Positions 2,442 through 6,054 of a DNA stretch of 13,490 nt are shown here, piece by piece; position 1 is the first letter of the stretch, and every line of letters starts with the position of its first letter. The DNA lies in NCBI GenBank assembly GCA_021800575.1, contig JAJYYW010000003.1:1-13490 (forward strand). Direction: 5' to 3'. Origin of the DNA: a bacterium. Lineage in GTDB: Bacteria; JAMCPX01. The position numbers and the translations under genes were made by a program. The notes below the pieces were generated by a model. It saw only the letters and a list, made by a program, of their open reading frames with translations. It did not search any database and was not told the DNA's origin.

Positions 2442-2489
2442 CTGTACCGCAGAGGCTTCCATAGTTGCGATCGTGTCTGAACGCGCCTT

Positions 2490-2542
2490 GTTGACAACAT
2501 GTAGACAACTTTATATATACCTATTATAAGAAAGTTGTCTAC
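2490..2542 (+). promoter_or_regulatory. Promoter embedded in a paired inverted repeat (operator-like module, copy 1)
   Basis: TTGACA (2491-2496) and TATATA (2514-2519) are separated by exactly 17 bases, a near-perfect sigma70-type promoter for the HTH-ATPase-STAS gene. Superimposed is a perfect 12-base inverted repeat: GTAGACAACTTT (2501-2512) in the promoter spacer and AAAGTTGTCTAC (2531-2542) at about the transcription start, with arms 30 bp apart centre to centre. A third related 9-mer, GTTGACAAC (2490-2498), covers the -35 box. A protein on these arms would block RNA polymerase. Autoregulation by the downstream HTH protein is my inference. Confidence 0.7.
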
Positions 2543-2558
2543 TGTAGGGAGGGAGAGG

Positions 2559-3584
2559 GTGGACATTGTCAAGCTCATAGAAAGTGTTTTAAAAAAGAAA
2601 GGAGAGGTGAGAGTTGCCGATATTGTTACTGTTACCGGATTCTCCCGCTCCTATATAAACCGTTATTTTAAAGACCTGAAGGACCAGGGGCGGCTCGCAC
2701 TGATCGGTAAGGCGAACAGGGCGCGATATGTTTCCGCTTCGGCATCCGCCGTCCACCGGATAAAGAATGCAGAATTGACCTACACCAGGATCTTAAAGAA
2801 CAGTGGTCTTTCGGAGGATATCATTCTGGATGACATCCGGCGTGAAACGGGAATATTTCTTCATCTCCGCCGGAATGTCACGGAAATAGCCGGGTATGCT
2901 TTTACCGAGATGTTGAATAACGCCATAGAGCATTCGCAATCTGACCGGATTACGGTAAAAATGAAATTAGAAAATGATGGAATTTTGTTTTCCGTGGCGG
3001 ATCGCGGCGTCGGGATTTTCGATAACATCATGAAAAAATACGGCCTTGACAGCAGAATGAGTGCGATTCAGGAGCTTTTAAAGGGTAAACAGACGACAGC
3101 ACCGCACAGCCATAGCGGGGAAGGGATTTTCTTTACCTCAAAGGCCGTTGACCTGATGACGATAAAAAGCTCCGACAAGAAGCTGATCTTCGATAACCGG
3201 GTCGATGATCTCTTCATCACAGACATCAAACCGCTCACCGGGACCACGGTGGAATGCTGGATCGGTCATACCTCAAAGAGGGACCTGCAGACGATATTCA
3301 GACAGTATACCGGAGAAACATCCGAATTTAAAAAAACTCTGGTCACGGTAAATCTTTACAAAGAAAAGTTTGAGTATATTTCCCGTTCCCAGGCGAGACG
3401 GATCATGAGCGGGCTCGAACGATTTTCCACCATCGTTCTGGATTTCAAGGATGTTGAATCCATCGGGCAGGCGTTCGCCGACGAGGTTTTCCGCGTATGG
3501 CAGGGCCGTCATCCCGGCATCAGGATCGAACTTAAAAACGCGAATGAGAACGTCCACTTTATGATCCATCACGTGACCGGTTGA
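2559..3584 (+). CDS. HTH + GHKL ATPase + STAS-like (DUF4325) regulator, three-domain fusion
   Basis: Predicted protein of 341 residues. Start chosen as GTG at 2559, because GGAGG (2548-2552) lies six bases upstream; a further in-frame TTG at 2535 lies inside the operator arm and has no ribosome site. Residues about 1-62 form a winged helix-turn-helix (VADIVTVTGFSRSYINRYF, then DQGRLALIGKANRARY). Residues about 105-235 form a GHKL/histidine-kinase-like ATPase: N box EMLNNAIEHS with E117 and N121, G1 box DRGVG at 148-152, G2 region HSGEGIFFTSK around 185-195. No phosphoacceptor-histidine (DHp) segment is evident. Residues about 257-337 match the STAS-like DUF4325 fold (LDFKDVESIGQAFADEVF). ATPase plus STAS resembles the SpoIIAB/SpoIIAA or RsbW/RsbV partner switch, but fused and joined to DNA binding. 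Target and signal are unknown. Base composition is visibly more AT-rich than rarA. It stands alone on the plus strand. Confidence 0.85.
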   Translation: MDIVKLIESVLKKKGEVRVADIVTVTGFSRSYINRYFKDLKDQGRLALIGKANRARYVSASASAVHRIKNAELTYTRILKNSGLSEDIILDDIRRETGIFLHLRRNVTEIAGYAFTEMLNNAIEHSQSDRITVKMKLENDGILFSVADRGVGIFDNIMKKYGLDSRMSAIQELLKGKQTTAPHSHSGEGIFFTSKAVDLMTIKSSDKKLIFDNRVDDLFITDIKPLTGTTVECWIGHTSKRDLQTIFRQYTGETSEFKKTLVTVNLYKEKFEYISRSQARRIMSGLERFSTIVLDFKDVESIGQAFADEVFRVWQGRHPGIRIELKNANENVHFMIHHVTG

Positions 3585-3632
3585 CGGCTTGTATACAACT
3601 TTTAAAACTCATTCTGCTGTAAAGCTGTCAAC
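3580..3632 (+). promoter_or_regulatory. Second copy of the paired inverted-repeat module, over the stop codon
   Basis: GTATACAACTTT (3591-3602) differs from the upstream left arm at one base, and AAAGCTGTCAAC (3621-3632) differs from the right arm at two. The arm spacing is again exactly 30 bp, and TTGAC again starts ten bases before the left arm, so every element is shifted by 1,090 bp. Outside the 18-base spacer I count 29 of 35 identical bases; within the spacer only 5 of 18. There is no good -10 box here. The TGA stop of the gene lies within the module. It may be a second operator (looping), or a remnant of a duplication or insertion. Confidence 0.6.
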
Positions 3633-3644
3633 TCCGCGTATAAC

Positions 3645-3680
3645 CGATGCAGGGGCGCATGATCATTCGCCCCTGCATCG
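3645..3680. terminator. Strong hairpin between convergent genes
   Basis: CGATGCAGGGGCG (3645-3657) pairs perfectly with CGCCCCTGCATCG (3668-3680) around a ten-base loop that itself contains the palindrome ATGATCAT. It lies just before the convergent lipoprotein gene end and could stop transcription from both sides, although neither side has a T-run. AGGGGCG/CGCCCCT palindromes of this look can also be dispersed intergenic repeats. Confidence 0.55.
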
Positions 3681-3687
3681 TGCAACC

Positions 3688-6054
3688 TCAGTAATTCCCT
3701 CCGCCCGGGAACACCGGGCCTGGATACGGCCAGTACTGGGGGCCCTTCGCAGCACCGACAAGCTCATATAACACGGTGATACCCCCCGGATTCGTAAGCA
3801 CCAGGACATCCCCTGCTGCATCGATGCTGATACCCACCGGTCCTGAACCCACTGCATACACCCCCAGGGTTTCGCCGGCAGGACTTAATTCAGTTACCGT
3901 AAAATCACCGCTATTCGTTACCCAGATATTGCCGGATGCGTCTATGGCAATACCGTCCGGATAATAGCCCACAGTATAGGTACCTATAGTTATGCCGGTA
4001 GGGCTTAATTCAGTTACCGTATTATCTCCATTATTCGCAACCCAGATATTGCCTGATGGATCTATGGCGATACCCTCCGGATAATTGCCCACGGTATATG
4101 TTCCGATACTGACACCGTCAGCGTTCAATTCCGTCACGGTATTGTAACTATTGTTCGTGACCCAGACATTGCCGGACGCATCTATTGCTATGCCCCATAT
4201 CCACGATCCGGAGTTAGGACTCGCAGGATACGTCCCCACGGTTACACCGGTCGCGCTTAATTTCGTTACCGTGCTGTCTCCCTCATTGACGACCCAGACA
4301 TGACCCGTGGCGTCTATGGCAATGTTACTCGGCGATGAGCCCACACTATACGTTCCAAGGGTGATACCGGTAGCGCTTAATTCGGACACCGTACCGTCAT
4401 TCTGGTTCACGACCCAGACGTCACCGGTGAAGTCTATGGCAACGCCAACAGGGCCGTTGCCGACCGTATAGGTCATGGTTGTGCCGGTAACTGTCAGTTC
4501 GTTTATTGTATTATTGTTGTTATTGGTGACCCAGATATTACCGTATGCATCTATGGCAGGGGCACCCCAGCTAAAAGCACTTGAGGTGCTGACTTGATTG
4601 GTGTTTGTCGTCACCGGCGTCGCACTTATTTGGCTGGAATATGCGCTTTCTATACCCTGAGTATCAACGGTGGTAACAACGAAGTAGTACCGTGAGCCGT
4701 CCGTCAGCGGCGATACCGTGTATCCCGTTGACGTTGTAAAGCACGCCAGTGTATACGGCCCACCCGGTGTTGCCGATTCATAAACATTGTAGCCTTTCAT
4801 ATTGCGGACCAATTCGGTTACGTTGTGACCGTAATAATTAGCGACCCAGACGTTGCCCGATGCGTCTATGCCGATTCCAATCGGTACTGAGCCCACGCCA
4901 TACGTTCCAAGGGTGATACCGGTAGAGGTTAGTTCTGTTACGGTATTATCATTGGCATTGGTGACCAAGATATCGCCCGATGCATCTATGGCAATTCCAG
5001 CCGGTGCTGAGCCGACCGTATACGTCCCAACGGTCGTGCCCGTAGGGCTGAGTTCGGATACCGTGTTGGTCCCGTTATTCGCAACCCAGACGTTGCTCGA
5101 GGCATCTATCGTAACTGCAACCGGCACTGAACCCACGCCATACGTTCCAAGGGTGATGCCGGTAGAGCTGAGTTCCGTAACTGTATTATTTCCACTATTC
5201 GCAACCCAGACATTCCCCGAAGCATCGATGGCAATGCCGGCCGGTCTTGAGCCCACGCCATACGTTCCGAGCGTGATACCGGTAGAGCTGAGTTTGGTTA
5301 TGGTGTTGTCATTATTATTCGCAATCCAGATATTACCGGATGCATCTATCGCAATTCCAGTCGGCCCTGAGCCCACGGTAAATGTTTCAAGGGTGGTGCC
5401 GGTCGGACTTAATTCTGTTACTGTGTCGCTTCCATAATTCGCAACCCATACATTACCCGAAGCGTCAATAGCCGTGGCCCATGGACCGTACCCGACCGTA
5501 GCTGTTGTTATCGTTGTGCCCGTGGGACTTAATTCGGTAACCGTGTTGGCTCCGTAATTCGCAACCCAGACATTTCCTCCGGCATCTATGGAAATCCAGT
5601 GCGGTTGTGGGCCTACCATATAGGTATTCCAGCCCAGCGACACCAACGAATCACCGGCGATTGCCGTAAGGTTGTTCGGCCCTGGTCTGGATGGTGTTGC
5701 GCTCACCTCGTTCGAGTAACCGCTCTGCCCGACGCTGTTCACCGCAGTCACCACGAAGTAATACTTGGTACCGTTCTTCAGCCCAGTAATTGAGCTGTCC
5801 ACTACCGAAGTCATTGTAAACGGTGTTGTGGAATACGTGCCTGACGTGGTCGAGGTATAGACATTATAGCTCGTTGCACCTTTTGATGCGCTCCATTGCA
5901 GTGTCACCTGCGAGTCAGCAGGCGTTGCAATGAGACCCGTTGGTGCCAATGGCTTCGATGTACCGCCTCCGCTGCTCTTGCTGCCACATCCGCTTCCTAT
6001 GCCAAGAGAAATAACCAGGGTGATTGCGAAAAGGGTTTTTACTGCATTTTTCAT
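3688..6054 (-). CDS. Large lipoprotein: FN3 domains with two seven-repeat NHL/Vgb-like beta-propellers
   Basis: Predicted 788-residue exported lipoprotein. A positively charged, hydrophobic signal (MKNAVKTLFAITLVISLGIG) ends at C23 in GSGC; glycine at -3 makes the lipobox slightly atypical. A Ser/Gly-rich tether follows, then FN3 domain 1 (about 36-121). Residues 124-142 give the first strands of FN3 domain 2, and 418-480 give its remainder (YNVYES...YYFVV...ATP). Between them, 143-417, sit seven 40-residue repeats of the type IAIDASGNVWVANxGxNTVTELSxTG. A second set of seven repeats spans about 495-766 (spacing 39-44), followed by a Pro/Gly/Tyr-rich tail. Such NHL/streptogramin-lyase-like repeats build propellers used for binding; I see no enzyme residues I would trust and assign no substrate. 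An AAGGAG ribosome site (6065-6060) precedes the ATG with a good spacer. Monocistronic, own promoter. Confidence 0.88.
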   Translation of the reverse strand: MKNAVKTLFAITLVISLGIGSGCGSKSSGGGTSKPLAPTGLIATPADSQVTLQWSASKGATSYNVYTSTTSGTYSTTPFTMTSVVDSSITGLKNGTKYYFVVTAVNSVGQSGYSNEVSATPSRPGPNNLTAIAGDSLVSLGWNTYMVGPQPHWISIDAGGNVWVANYGANTVTELSPTGTTITTATVGYGPWATAIDASGNVWVANYGSDTVTELSPTGTTLETFTVGSGPTGIAIDASGNIWIANNNDNTITKLSSTGITLGTYGVGSRPAGIAIDASGNVWVANSGNNTVTELSSTGITLGTYGVGSVPVAVTIDASSNVWVANNGTNTVSELSPTGTTVGTYTVGSAPAGIAIDASGDILVTNANDNTVTELTSTGITLGTYGVGSVPIGIGIDASGNVWVANYYGHNVTELVRNMKGYNVYESATPGGPYTLACFTTSTGYTVSPLTDGSRYYFVVTTVDTQGIESAYSSQISATPVTTNTNQVSTSSAFSWGAPAIDAYGNIWVTNNNNNTINELTVTGTTMTYTVGNGPVGVAIDFTGDVWVVNQNDGTVSELSATGITLGTYSVGSSPSNIAIDATGHVWVVNEGDSTVTKLSATGVTVGTYPASPNSGSWIWGIAIDASGNVWVTNNSYNTVTELNADGVSIGTYTVGNYPEGIAIDPSGNIWVANNGDNTVTELSPTGITIGTYTVGYYPDGIAIDASGNIWVTNSGDFTVTELSPAGETLGVYAVGSGPVGISIDAAGDVLVLTNPGGITVLYELVGAAKGPQYWPYPGPVFPGGGNY
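3757..4572 (-). repeat. Second propeller array: seven about 120-bp coding repeats
   Basis: The core Asn/Asp/His-hydrophobic-Trp/Leu-Val motif recurs at residues 506, 545, 585, 629, 669, 709 and 749 of the lipoprotein, giving steps of 39, 40, 44, 40, 40 and 40. The 44-residue step comes from an insertion, PASPNSGSW, before the fourth repeat. Repeats are more diverged than in the first array. Seven repeats would close a seven-bladed propeller. Confidence 0.85.
4804..5628 (-). repeat. First propeller array: seven exact 120-bp coding repeats
   Basis: The NVWVAN-type motif recurs at residues 161, 201, 241, 281, 321, 361 and 401 of the lipoprotein, exactly every 40 residues. DNA identity between some units is high; for example, the plus-strand string CCATACGTTCCAAGGGTGAT recurs in units near 4890 and 5130, with a one-base variant near 5250. 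Very regular spacing and high identity suggest recent amplification or gene conversion among units. Confidence 0.85.

Follow-up and report, generated by a model that had tools for sequence, protein, structure and literature searches.

The window, by which we mean the whole stretch of 13,490 nucleotides analysed here, carries a gene for a 341-residue protein in which a winged helix-turn-helix (wHTH), a GHKL ATPase, and a STAS-like domain stand in one chain, and it raises the question of what such a protein would switch and by which route. In Bacillus, the SpoIIAB/SpoIIAA and RsbW/RsbV pairs consist of separate chains with a sigma-factor partner and work through a phosphoserine. A preliminary description of the locus had read the protein as such a partner switch contained in a single chain, autoregulated and without described precedent. 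Our analysis leads to a related answer, to which we give a probability of about 0.58: the protein would be a single-chain autorepressor related to the CapKS and VapKSC kinase-STAS switches, its wHTH binding its own operators under the gating of the GHKL and STAS-like domains.

The three-domain architecture in one chain is real, as the preliminary description had it, and Pfam, a MarR-family profile, AlphaFold2, and Foldseek agreed on the wHTH, the GHKL ATPase with its N, G1, and G2 boxes, and the DUF4325 domain (Table 1). The GTG or ATG equivalent to position 2559 is the start codon in the closest relatives, and an in-frame TTG at 2535 falls within the predicted upstream operator. In Pfam, DUF4325 (PF14213) matched residues 278–332 with E 1.3e-15 and 57.3 bits against a gathering cut-off of 23, and HATPase_c_2 (residues 111–207, E 8.1e-8) and HATPase_c (E 2.2e-6) also scored above their cut-offs. 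No individual Pfam HTH model scored above its cut-off at the HTH, the best being HTH_24 (E 0.01). A profile built from 28 family sequences, namely the window protein, L002–L004, and proteins from 24 of 26 viral-contig loci (without L066 and L072), matched MarR-family repressors among PDB sequences (8za5, E 3.4e-5) and also, from E 5.6e-4, ATPase domains of histidine kinases. The AlphaFold2 model made from the same alignment (mean pLDDT 87.1, pTM 0.79) contains helices at residues 3–14, 19–26, and 30–42 and strands at 46–49 and 56–59 in its N-terminal domain. In Foldseek, SpoIIAB (1til_E, E 4.8e-5) was the PDB entry that the whole model matched best, and the six matches at E ≤ 0.001 included the SpoIIAB chains 1til_E, 1l0o, and 1tid, so that the ATPase part is of the anti-sigma kinase type; structure prediction, proposed earlier as a check, thus bore out both the HTH and the GHKL fold. 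Compared with viral structures, the whole model had two matches at E ≤ 0.001, each of them partial, with TMq 0.22 and 0.26.

Table 1. Features of the locus, with positions counted from the first letter of the window
Feature	Position	Strand	Basis or remark
Candidate half-site-like TTGTTGACAA, one helical turn 5' of the left arm	2488..2497	.	
Alternative promoter: TTGACA 2491-2496, 17 bp, TATATA 2514-2519		+	by eye
Predicted upstream operator dyad GTAGACAACTTT-N18-AAAGTTGTCTAC around the promoter	2501..2542	.	perfect 12-bp inverted repeat; spacing in subfamily; genome scan
Likely promoter: TAGACA 2502-2507, 17 bp, TATAAG 2525-2530	2502..2530	+	by eye
Gene for wHTH - GHKL ATPase/kinase-like - DUF4325 (STAS-like) protein, 341 aa, GTG start	2559..3584	+	ORF, Pfam, AlphaFold2
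N-terminal winged HTH, ~residues 1-60; recognition helix ~30-42	2559..2738	+	MarR-family profile, AlphaFold2
GHKL ATPase/kinase-like domain, ~residues 105-237	2871..3269	+	Pfam, Foldseek, hhalign
Codons Ser275-Arg276-Ser277 (SRS motif)	3381..3389	+	invariant in 46/46 fused relatives
DUF4325 STAS-like domain	3390..3554	+	Pfam, weak-E STAS fold matches, hhalign
Codon Gln304, VapS phosphoserine position	3468..3470	+	Q in 45/46 fused relatives
Predicted downstream operator dyad GTATACAACTTT-N18-AAAGCTGTCAAC	3591..3632	.	1 mismatch in 20 fixed positions
Segment missing from the RarA / NHL-protein intergenic site of congener G002 (L119)	2442..3650	.	1209 bp in the window, 73 bp in G002

Modelled by itself, the C-terminal domain (pLDDT 80.2) matched no PDB structure at E ≤ 0.001 in Foldseek; its top match was the STAS protein RsbS (6jhk, E 4.3e-3, probability 1.00), followed by the non-STAS protein Hda (E 9.9e-3) and, at ranks 3–5, by prestin STAS domains (E 1.3e-2 to 1.9e-2). 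Profile comparison with hhalign found the ATPase part homologous to VapK-type kinases (probability 95.1, E 3.5e-8) and the DUF4325 domain homologous to stand-alone DUF4325 proteins (probability 91.5, E 8.7e-7). The boxes of the ATPase domain consist of E117, N120, N121, and H125, of D148, G150, and G152, and of G187 and G189. Among 46 of the 47 fused relatives (the fragment L072 was left out of all residue counts), E117 was kept in 44 and N121, D148, G150, G152, G187, and G189 in all 46. Deviations at E117, N120, or H125 were confined to L003, which is partial with a gap at E117, and L046, a fused-type protein whose C-terminal half matches the family and whose N-terminal half does not, with E117, N120, and H125 replaced; the latter is possibly a rearranged or decayed copy. 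No His-acceptor domain was found among the Pfam matches, in agreement with the phosphoacceptor histidine having been reported as not evident.

The DNA at 2490–2542, named in the preliminary description for a check of DNA binding, holds a perfect 12-bp inverted repeat (2501–2512 and 2531–2542) with 18 bp between its arms, and the resulting dyad pattern, GTNNACAACTTT-N18-AAAGTTGTNNAC, overlaps the promoter of the gene. An automatic promoter scan, which requires a T at the last -10 position, called neither of the two promoter candidates. Within the window subfamily, defined as proteins at least 52% identical to the window protein, ACAA-N26-TTGT occurred at the exact window spacing in all six representatives with upstream DNA, and twice in two of them. 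Two congeners (L034 and L035) also have dyads at both gene ends, with 0 and 3 mismatches in G001 and 0 and 4 in G003. In these loci, the second dyad (L034:7661-7702 and L035:2173-2214) separates the gene from an enoyl-CoA hydratase gene and is followed directly by a -35/-10-like pair and a GC hairpin, as judged by eye, which makes a second target or a short transcript possible. The window itself has an 18-bp near-perfect hairpin at 3645–3680 between convergent genes, and by eye a related one stands at the same place in a gene-less congener (L119).

As for the specificity of the dyad, the 42-bp pattern with up to three mismatches was found in the available part of the window's own assembly (G000; 1.86 Mb, 80% complete) only at 2501–2542 and 3591–3632, and a reversed control pattern gave no match there; this placement suggested that the switch would act mainly on its own cassette. 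In 137.7 kb of loci, which were picked around the gene and are no fair sample of genomes, all 12 dyads at three mismatches or fewer lay at a family gene except one, which is at a contig end and is identical to the dyad of L002, and five mononucleotide shuffles contained none. Locus L043 contains a contig-end dyad only.

Own promoters were then compared across the family, using 42 of the 47 unique members, reduced to 38 representatives at less than 80% identity; L003, L072, L047, L052, and L046 were left out (no upstream DNA, fragments, or an unlike N-terminus). Direct 9-mer repeats within 110 bp 5' of the gene were found at lag 11 in 8 of the 38 (shuffles, 0.90), at lag 21 in 11 (0.78), at lag 22 in 10 (0.67), and at lag 43 in 8 (0.47), all lags in helical phase. 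With lags 11, 21–24, and 43 pooled, 27 of 38 own promoters carried such a repeat as against 19 of 182 control promoters, which belong to other ORFs of these loci (Fisher p 5e-14, only indicative because the lags were chosen after the repeat test and relatives are not independent). This pooled test and the control-promoter comparison replaced a motif-blind 9-mer count in single promoters, which was underpowered and reached p < 0.05 in 9 of 43 promoters, a mostly negative outcome. The phased direct repeat was absent in 11 of the 38 representatives, five of which (L004, L006, L008, L009, and L012) have dyads or TAGTTATAA repeats.

The promoter motifs followed the recognition helix. Proteins with a helix of the [ST]RQA[VLI][NH]xH class had two or more TTGACAAT in 9 of 9 promoters versus 0 of 29 others (two of the 29 have one), the class of the window protein had AAAGTTGT in 6 of 6 versus 1 of 32, and the TTVHRH class had TAGTTATAA in 2 of 2 versus 0 of 36; 21 of the 38 representatives belong to no class, and the tests were not blind, because classes and lags were picked after the promoters had been viewed and class members are related. 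That the helix class predicts the motif of the protein's own promoter is the strongest indication from sequence that each protein reads its own promoter. Taken together, the dyads at the gene, the helix-motif match, and the genome scan strengthened the earlier proposal of autoregulation, and, as far as sequence goes, autorepression of the own promoter appears well supported.

On this basis, a mechanism can be proposed. Acting as a dimer or a larger multimer, the N-terminal wHTH would bind the paired AAAGTTGTNNAC half-sites that bracket the region from -35 to the start, the dimer spanning two half-sites, and would also occupy the second dyad after the gene, thereby repressing its own transcription; this is the best supported step. 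The SpoIIAB-like and STAS-like domains, held in cis, might form a nucleotide-dependent clamp or a dimer interface that positions the wHTHs, and ATP or a ligand could exert control through this pair. A signal would change the state of the protein and free the operator, upon which the protein would make a burst of itself. Single-stranded DNA or DNA damage may be suggested as this signal by analogy with CapK only; it counts against single-stranded DNA that the window protein is without CapK's N-terminal STAS domain.

The distribution of the gene bears on whether the protein might do more than silence itself. Among 98 genomes, the window's own included, 13 matched at E ≤ 0.001, and nine of these matches span the greater part of the protein; the eight near-full matches besides the window's own are 37–68% identical, several of them in distant genera. 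A profile search gave matches in 19 of 386 genomes (17 of 325 genera) at E ≤ 1e-70 and, in the phylum of G093, in 2 of 4 genomes at E ≤ 1e-30. One scan of genome contigs with the single protein gave three loci (Portnoybacteria twice and Parcubacteria) and one scan of predicted viral contigs gave 26; tblastn of the window protein against phage and plasmid record collections gave no match. The HTH-GHKL-DUF4325 family is widespread but sporadic.

The gene also appears to be mobile. It lies between the genes for RarA/MgsA (1167–2441) and an NHL-repeat protein, and the corresponding site of congener G002 is empty (Table 1); congener G001 likewise has the RarA/NHL site without the gene, which stands on another contig beside the hydratase gene. 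RarA was present in six of eight relatives searched. In G008, from another genus of the same taxonomic family, a tail-like stretch is directly followed by a dyad with three mismatches. The stretch is out of frame, and its tblastn match (75% over 8 residues, E 8.8) is not significant alone; because the order matches that behind intact genes and the DNA is alike by eye, it may be a relic of the gene tail and the downstream dyad. A search for shared neighbours gave little: at 11 gene-holding loci (the window, L004, and L034–L042), the only adjacent neighbour in common was the enoyl-CoA hydratase of the congeners G001 and G003 (L034 and L035). No immune operon was found beside the gene at these loci or among the four window neighbours scanned (RarA/MgsA, NAD kinase, the NHL-repeat protein, and an alpha/beta hydrolase), and no toxin gene was seen beside the window gene. 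The NHL-repeat neighbour (3688–6054) is a 788-aa fn3 and NHL/Vgb-lyase-like beta-propeller protein with strong internal repeats. Some look-alike pairs farther from the gene included radical-SAM or methyltransferase-like ORFs. Directly behind the gene of one relative (L036:2717-3170) come a toxin gene, HicA by Pfam, and a HicB-like ORF, and in another relative (L042) DUF5674 adjoins the gene; neither arrangement recurs.

These data bear on a reading, compatible with autorepression and in our view somewhat unlikely, in which the protein is an autonomous accessory effector that acts on the cell or on a phage once derepressed, the operators serving only to silence it. An accessory gene of this kind is called a moron, and our classification of this gene as moron-like is an inference from its sporadic occurrence, the empty site in G002, the possible relic in G008, and the 26 viral-contig loci, around which terminase, integrase, tail-fibre, and baseplate proteins were found at varied map places. 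The neighbour set comprised 59 proteins, three from the window and most from a list of 94 neighbour ORFs, with a few from farther out, and was searched with PHROGs and PADLOC. Against an effector, Pfam found no domain in the 341-aa protein besides the regulator domains, PADLOC gave only weak CasR-model matches to its HTH region, and among the 59 neighbours PADLOC recognised three families with one protein each.

The route by which an autorepressor of this kind might be switched depends on the STAS-like domain. DUF4325 was found in 41 of 386 genomes, and the stand-alone sample consisted of 13 of 32 places with open frames under 200 aa. The link to VapS was made through these stand-alone proteins because the C-terminal profile found nothing relevant among PDB sequences. 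The VapS-like protein of L100 matched the solved Escherichia VapS (9z7o) with E 3.6e-10 and carries DUF4325 (Pfam, E 8.5e-15), and by profile alignment VapS Ser48 corresponds to Ser54 of the L100 protein and to Gln304 of the window protein, with a deduced offset between chain and protein numbering. In five loci (L090, L097, L100, L102, and L113), the DUF4325 gene is followed by a PIN-like ORF, as judged by eye and confirmed by Pfam in L097, L100, and L102; where the preceding ORF was read, it was GHKL-like, and three of four tested matched HATPase_c, each under the cut-off. The order of these loci appears vapKSC-like.

Among the 46 fused relatives, position 304 is Gln in 45 and Pro in one (L068, which has Ser at 305), and position 305 is Ala in 28, Gly in 17, and Ser in one. 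When 24 fused and 13 stand-alone DUF4325 domains were aligned jointly, column 304 held Q in 23 and P in one of the fused proteins, as against S in 6, T in 4, and P, V, and A in one each of the stand-alone proteins, 12 of which have Ser or Thr at 304 or 305 by eye. The reverse was seen in column 277: all 24 fused proteins have Ser there, and the 13 stand-alone proteins have mixed residues and never Ser; column 275 is Ser in 24 of 24 and 7 of 13, respectively. As judged from these alignments, the older Ser/Thr is gone from the fused family, which has its own Ser at 277. An acceptor Ser of the CapK/CapS type at the start of STAS helix 2 is absent from the window protein, which is not classed as a CapS because the conserved phospho-acceptor is missing. 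Since the serine is replaced by Gln304, the canonical phosphoserine output is probably unused, and the CapKS route of phosphorylation would be closed in the fused family unless another residue, e.g., Ser277, is the acceptor.

The invariance of Ser277 keeps phosphorylation a live option, and it leads to a phosphoswitch in cis, which we regard as unlikely, with a moved acceptor: the GHKL domain would be an active Ser/Thr kinase whose target lies elsewhere in the same chain or in the dimer partner, in the first place Ser277, the last residue of the SRS motif, where helix 1 begins, and phosphorylation would release the operator as in CapS. The ATP-site motifs, kept in at least 44 of 46 relatives, the invariant S275, R276, and S277, and the exchange between the columns (Ser at 277 in 24 of 24 versus 0 of 13, Ser/Thr at 304 in 0 of 24 versus 10 of 13) point in this direction, and SpoIIAB is a kinase. 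CapK is one too (PMC13373217). Ser275 is, on the other hand, also Ser in 7 of 13 stand-alone proteins, so the SRS motif may be structural. A bolder generalization, which we put forward tentatively and at somewhat less than even odds, is that the fused proteins are solitary, self-addressed switches, in which sensor, kinase-like motor, STAS interface, and DNA reader share one chain and the target is the two operators at the ends of their own mobile cassette; the canonical phosphoserine would have been given up, and ATP state, a ligand, or a phosphosite moved to Ser277 would gate DNA binding.

Sites away from the gene were examined in 13 genomes, several of them incomplete, so that isolated or variant sites could be missed. 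In the gene-holding genomes, dyads with three mismatches or fewer numbered two each in G000, G001, G093, G095, and G098 and one each in G003 and G100. They lay only at the gene in G000, G001, G003, G093, G095, and G100, and at the gene and one contig end in G098; the reversed control pattern gave a forward count of one over all 13 genomes. Of the genomes in which no copy of the gene was found, G002, G004, and G008 contained one dyad each (3, 2, and 3 mismatches) and G005, G006, and G007 none. The G004 dyad (L136:1436-1477; G004:C331:3835-3876) precedes a 50-aa ORF on the minus strand and may be a relic or a separate target. The half-site AAAGTTGTNNAC occurred five times in G000, three of them at the window locus, seven times in G001, two of them at the gene, and twice in G003, both at the gene; the control pattern occurred 3, 9, and 5 times, so that genome-wide counts are not raised and only the placement is unusual. 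The two remaining half-sites of G000 lie in a long open frame and, beside an N run, just before a TPR-like gene (L129:646-657; G000:C27:5945-5956), and the five of G001 lie in long open frames (four) and before an aconitase-like gene (L135:603-614; G001:C71:43902-43913). Both intergenic half-sites stand singly in promoter-like stretches, their genes are named by eye, and both are candidate further targets. A looser operator pattern was rejected; its matches in G093, G095, and G100 were unrelated repeats, and in G000 it matched as often as the control (1 and 1).

The weak dyads in the gene-less G002, G004, and G008 and the extra half-sites in G000 and G001 count against a reading in which the protein acts on its own promoter only. 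They raise the alternative of an ordinary global or local regulator with its main targets at other genes and autoregulation as a side effect, which the intergenic half-sites, the two-mismatch dyad of G004, and the second dyads of G001 and G003 (3 and 4 mismatches), set before a hydratase gene about 180 nt on, would favour. We consider it improbable, given the confinement of dyads to the gene, with one contig end in G098, and a hydratase shared by only two congeners as the sole common adjacent neighbour at 11 loci. Finally, the sequences do not support the canonical form of the earlier proposal, a classical SpoIIAB/RsbW-type partner switch with its STAS part phosphorylated on the usual Ser, which has the shared fold families and the Pro-Ser of L068 (1 of 46) in its favour and is made highly improbable by Gln304 and Ala/Gly305 in 45 of 46 relatives each, by Ser/Thr at one of these positions in 12 of 13 stand-alone proteins, and by the finding of no recognisable sigma-factor gene among the four scanned window neighbours.

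The preferred reading, a single-chain autorepressor, ties a large unnamed HTH-GHKL-DUF4325 family, present both on predicted viral contigs and on chromosomes, to the CapKS/VapKSC switches of stress and immunity and places VapS in Pfam DUF4325. It also raises the question of what a kinase-like domain does when the classical acceptor of its own STAS partner is missing. The predicted operators can be tested in vitro at once, and a self-contained one-gene switch, if true, would be a useful regulatory part.

Several known systems resemble parts of this arrangement. Like MarR-family autorepressors, the window protein combines a wHTH with an operator-like dyad over its own promoter; MarR proteins are not known to carry GHKL and STAS domains. 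SpoIIAB is the best fold match of the ATPase part, in which the ATP motifs and the fold of SpoIIAB and RsbW are both present, and the C-terminus is of the STAS type, as are SpoIIAA and RsbV. Those pairs have separate chains, a sigma-factor partner, and a phosphoserine (PMC13373217).

The nearest relatives are CapK/CapS and VapKSC, published in EMBO J on 9 June 2026 (PMC13373217). There, VapS is described as a stand-alone antitoxin with a phospho-Ser48 and a PIN toxin partner (PMC13373217). The likeness to VapK-VapS-VapC lies in the homologous kinase domains and in the VapS-like L100 protein falling within Pfam DUF4325; STAS homology was tested and found for VapS only. In contrast to the stand-alone VapS, the DUF4325 domain of the window is fused, and no toxin gene was seen beside it. 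The term DUF4325 is absent from the main text of that paper and, in the open-licence literature accessible to us, is named in two papers, in passing. The earlier claim of novelty went too far: a two-protein system with a STAS-wHTH repressor of its own promoter was already published (PMC13373217), and no description of a single-chain form with its own operators at both ends was found in the accessible open-licence literature, that paper included.

CapK and CapS form a two-protein DNA-damage switch (PMC13373217). CapS joins a STAS domain to a wHTH, recognises palindromes within the promoter of its own gene, and, as an unphosphorylated dimer, represses this promoter and that of an immune operon; CapK, activated by single-stranded DNA, for which the groove that its N-terminal STAS domain forms with the GHKL domain is the predicted site, phosphorylates CapS at Ser54, and the dimer splits (PMC13373217). 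Of 443 capKS cases, 348 stand ahead of an immune operon, either known or predicted (PMC13373217), whereas no such neighbour was seen at the window gene. CapK has an N-terminal STAS domain of its own and is activated by single-stranded DNA, and the window protein is without that domain. The phosphorylated Ser54 of CapS is absolutely conserved, whereas the window protein has Gln at the corresponding position as derived from VapS. The half-sites are TTAA for CapS and AAAGTTGTNNAC in the window, and the domain order is wHTH-GHKL-DUF4325 in the window protein, HTH-STAS-GHKL in CapK, and STAS-wHTH in CapS (PMC13373217). In both systems, a GHKL kinase-like, a STAS-type, and a wHTH domain would jointly control transcription, through two proteins in CapK/CapS and through one chain in the window, whose protein appears, from its sequence and its sites, to be a single-protein relative of the published switch, acting mainly on its own promoter.
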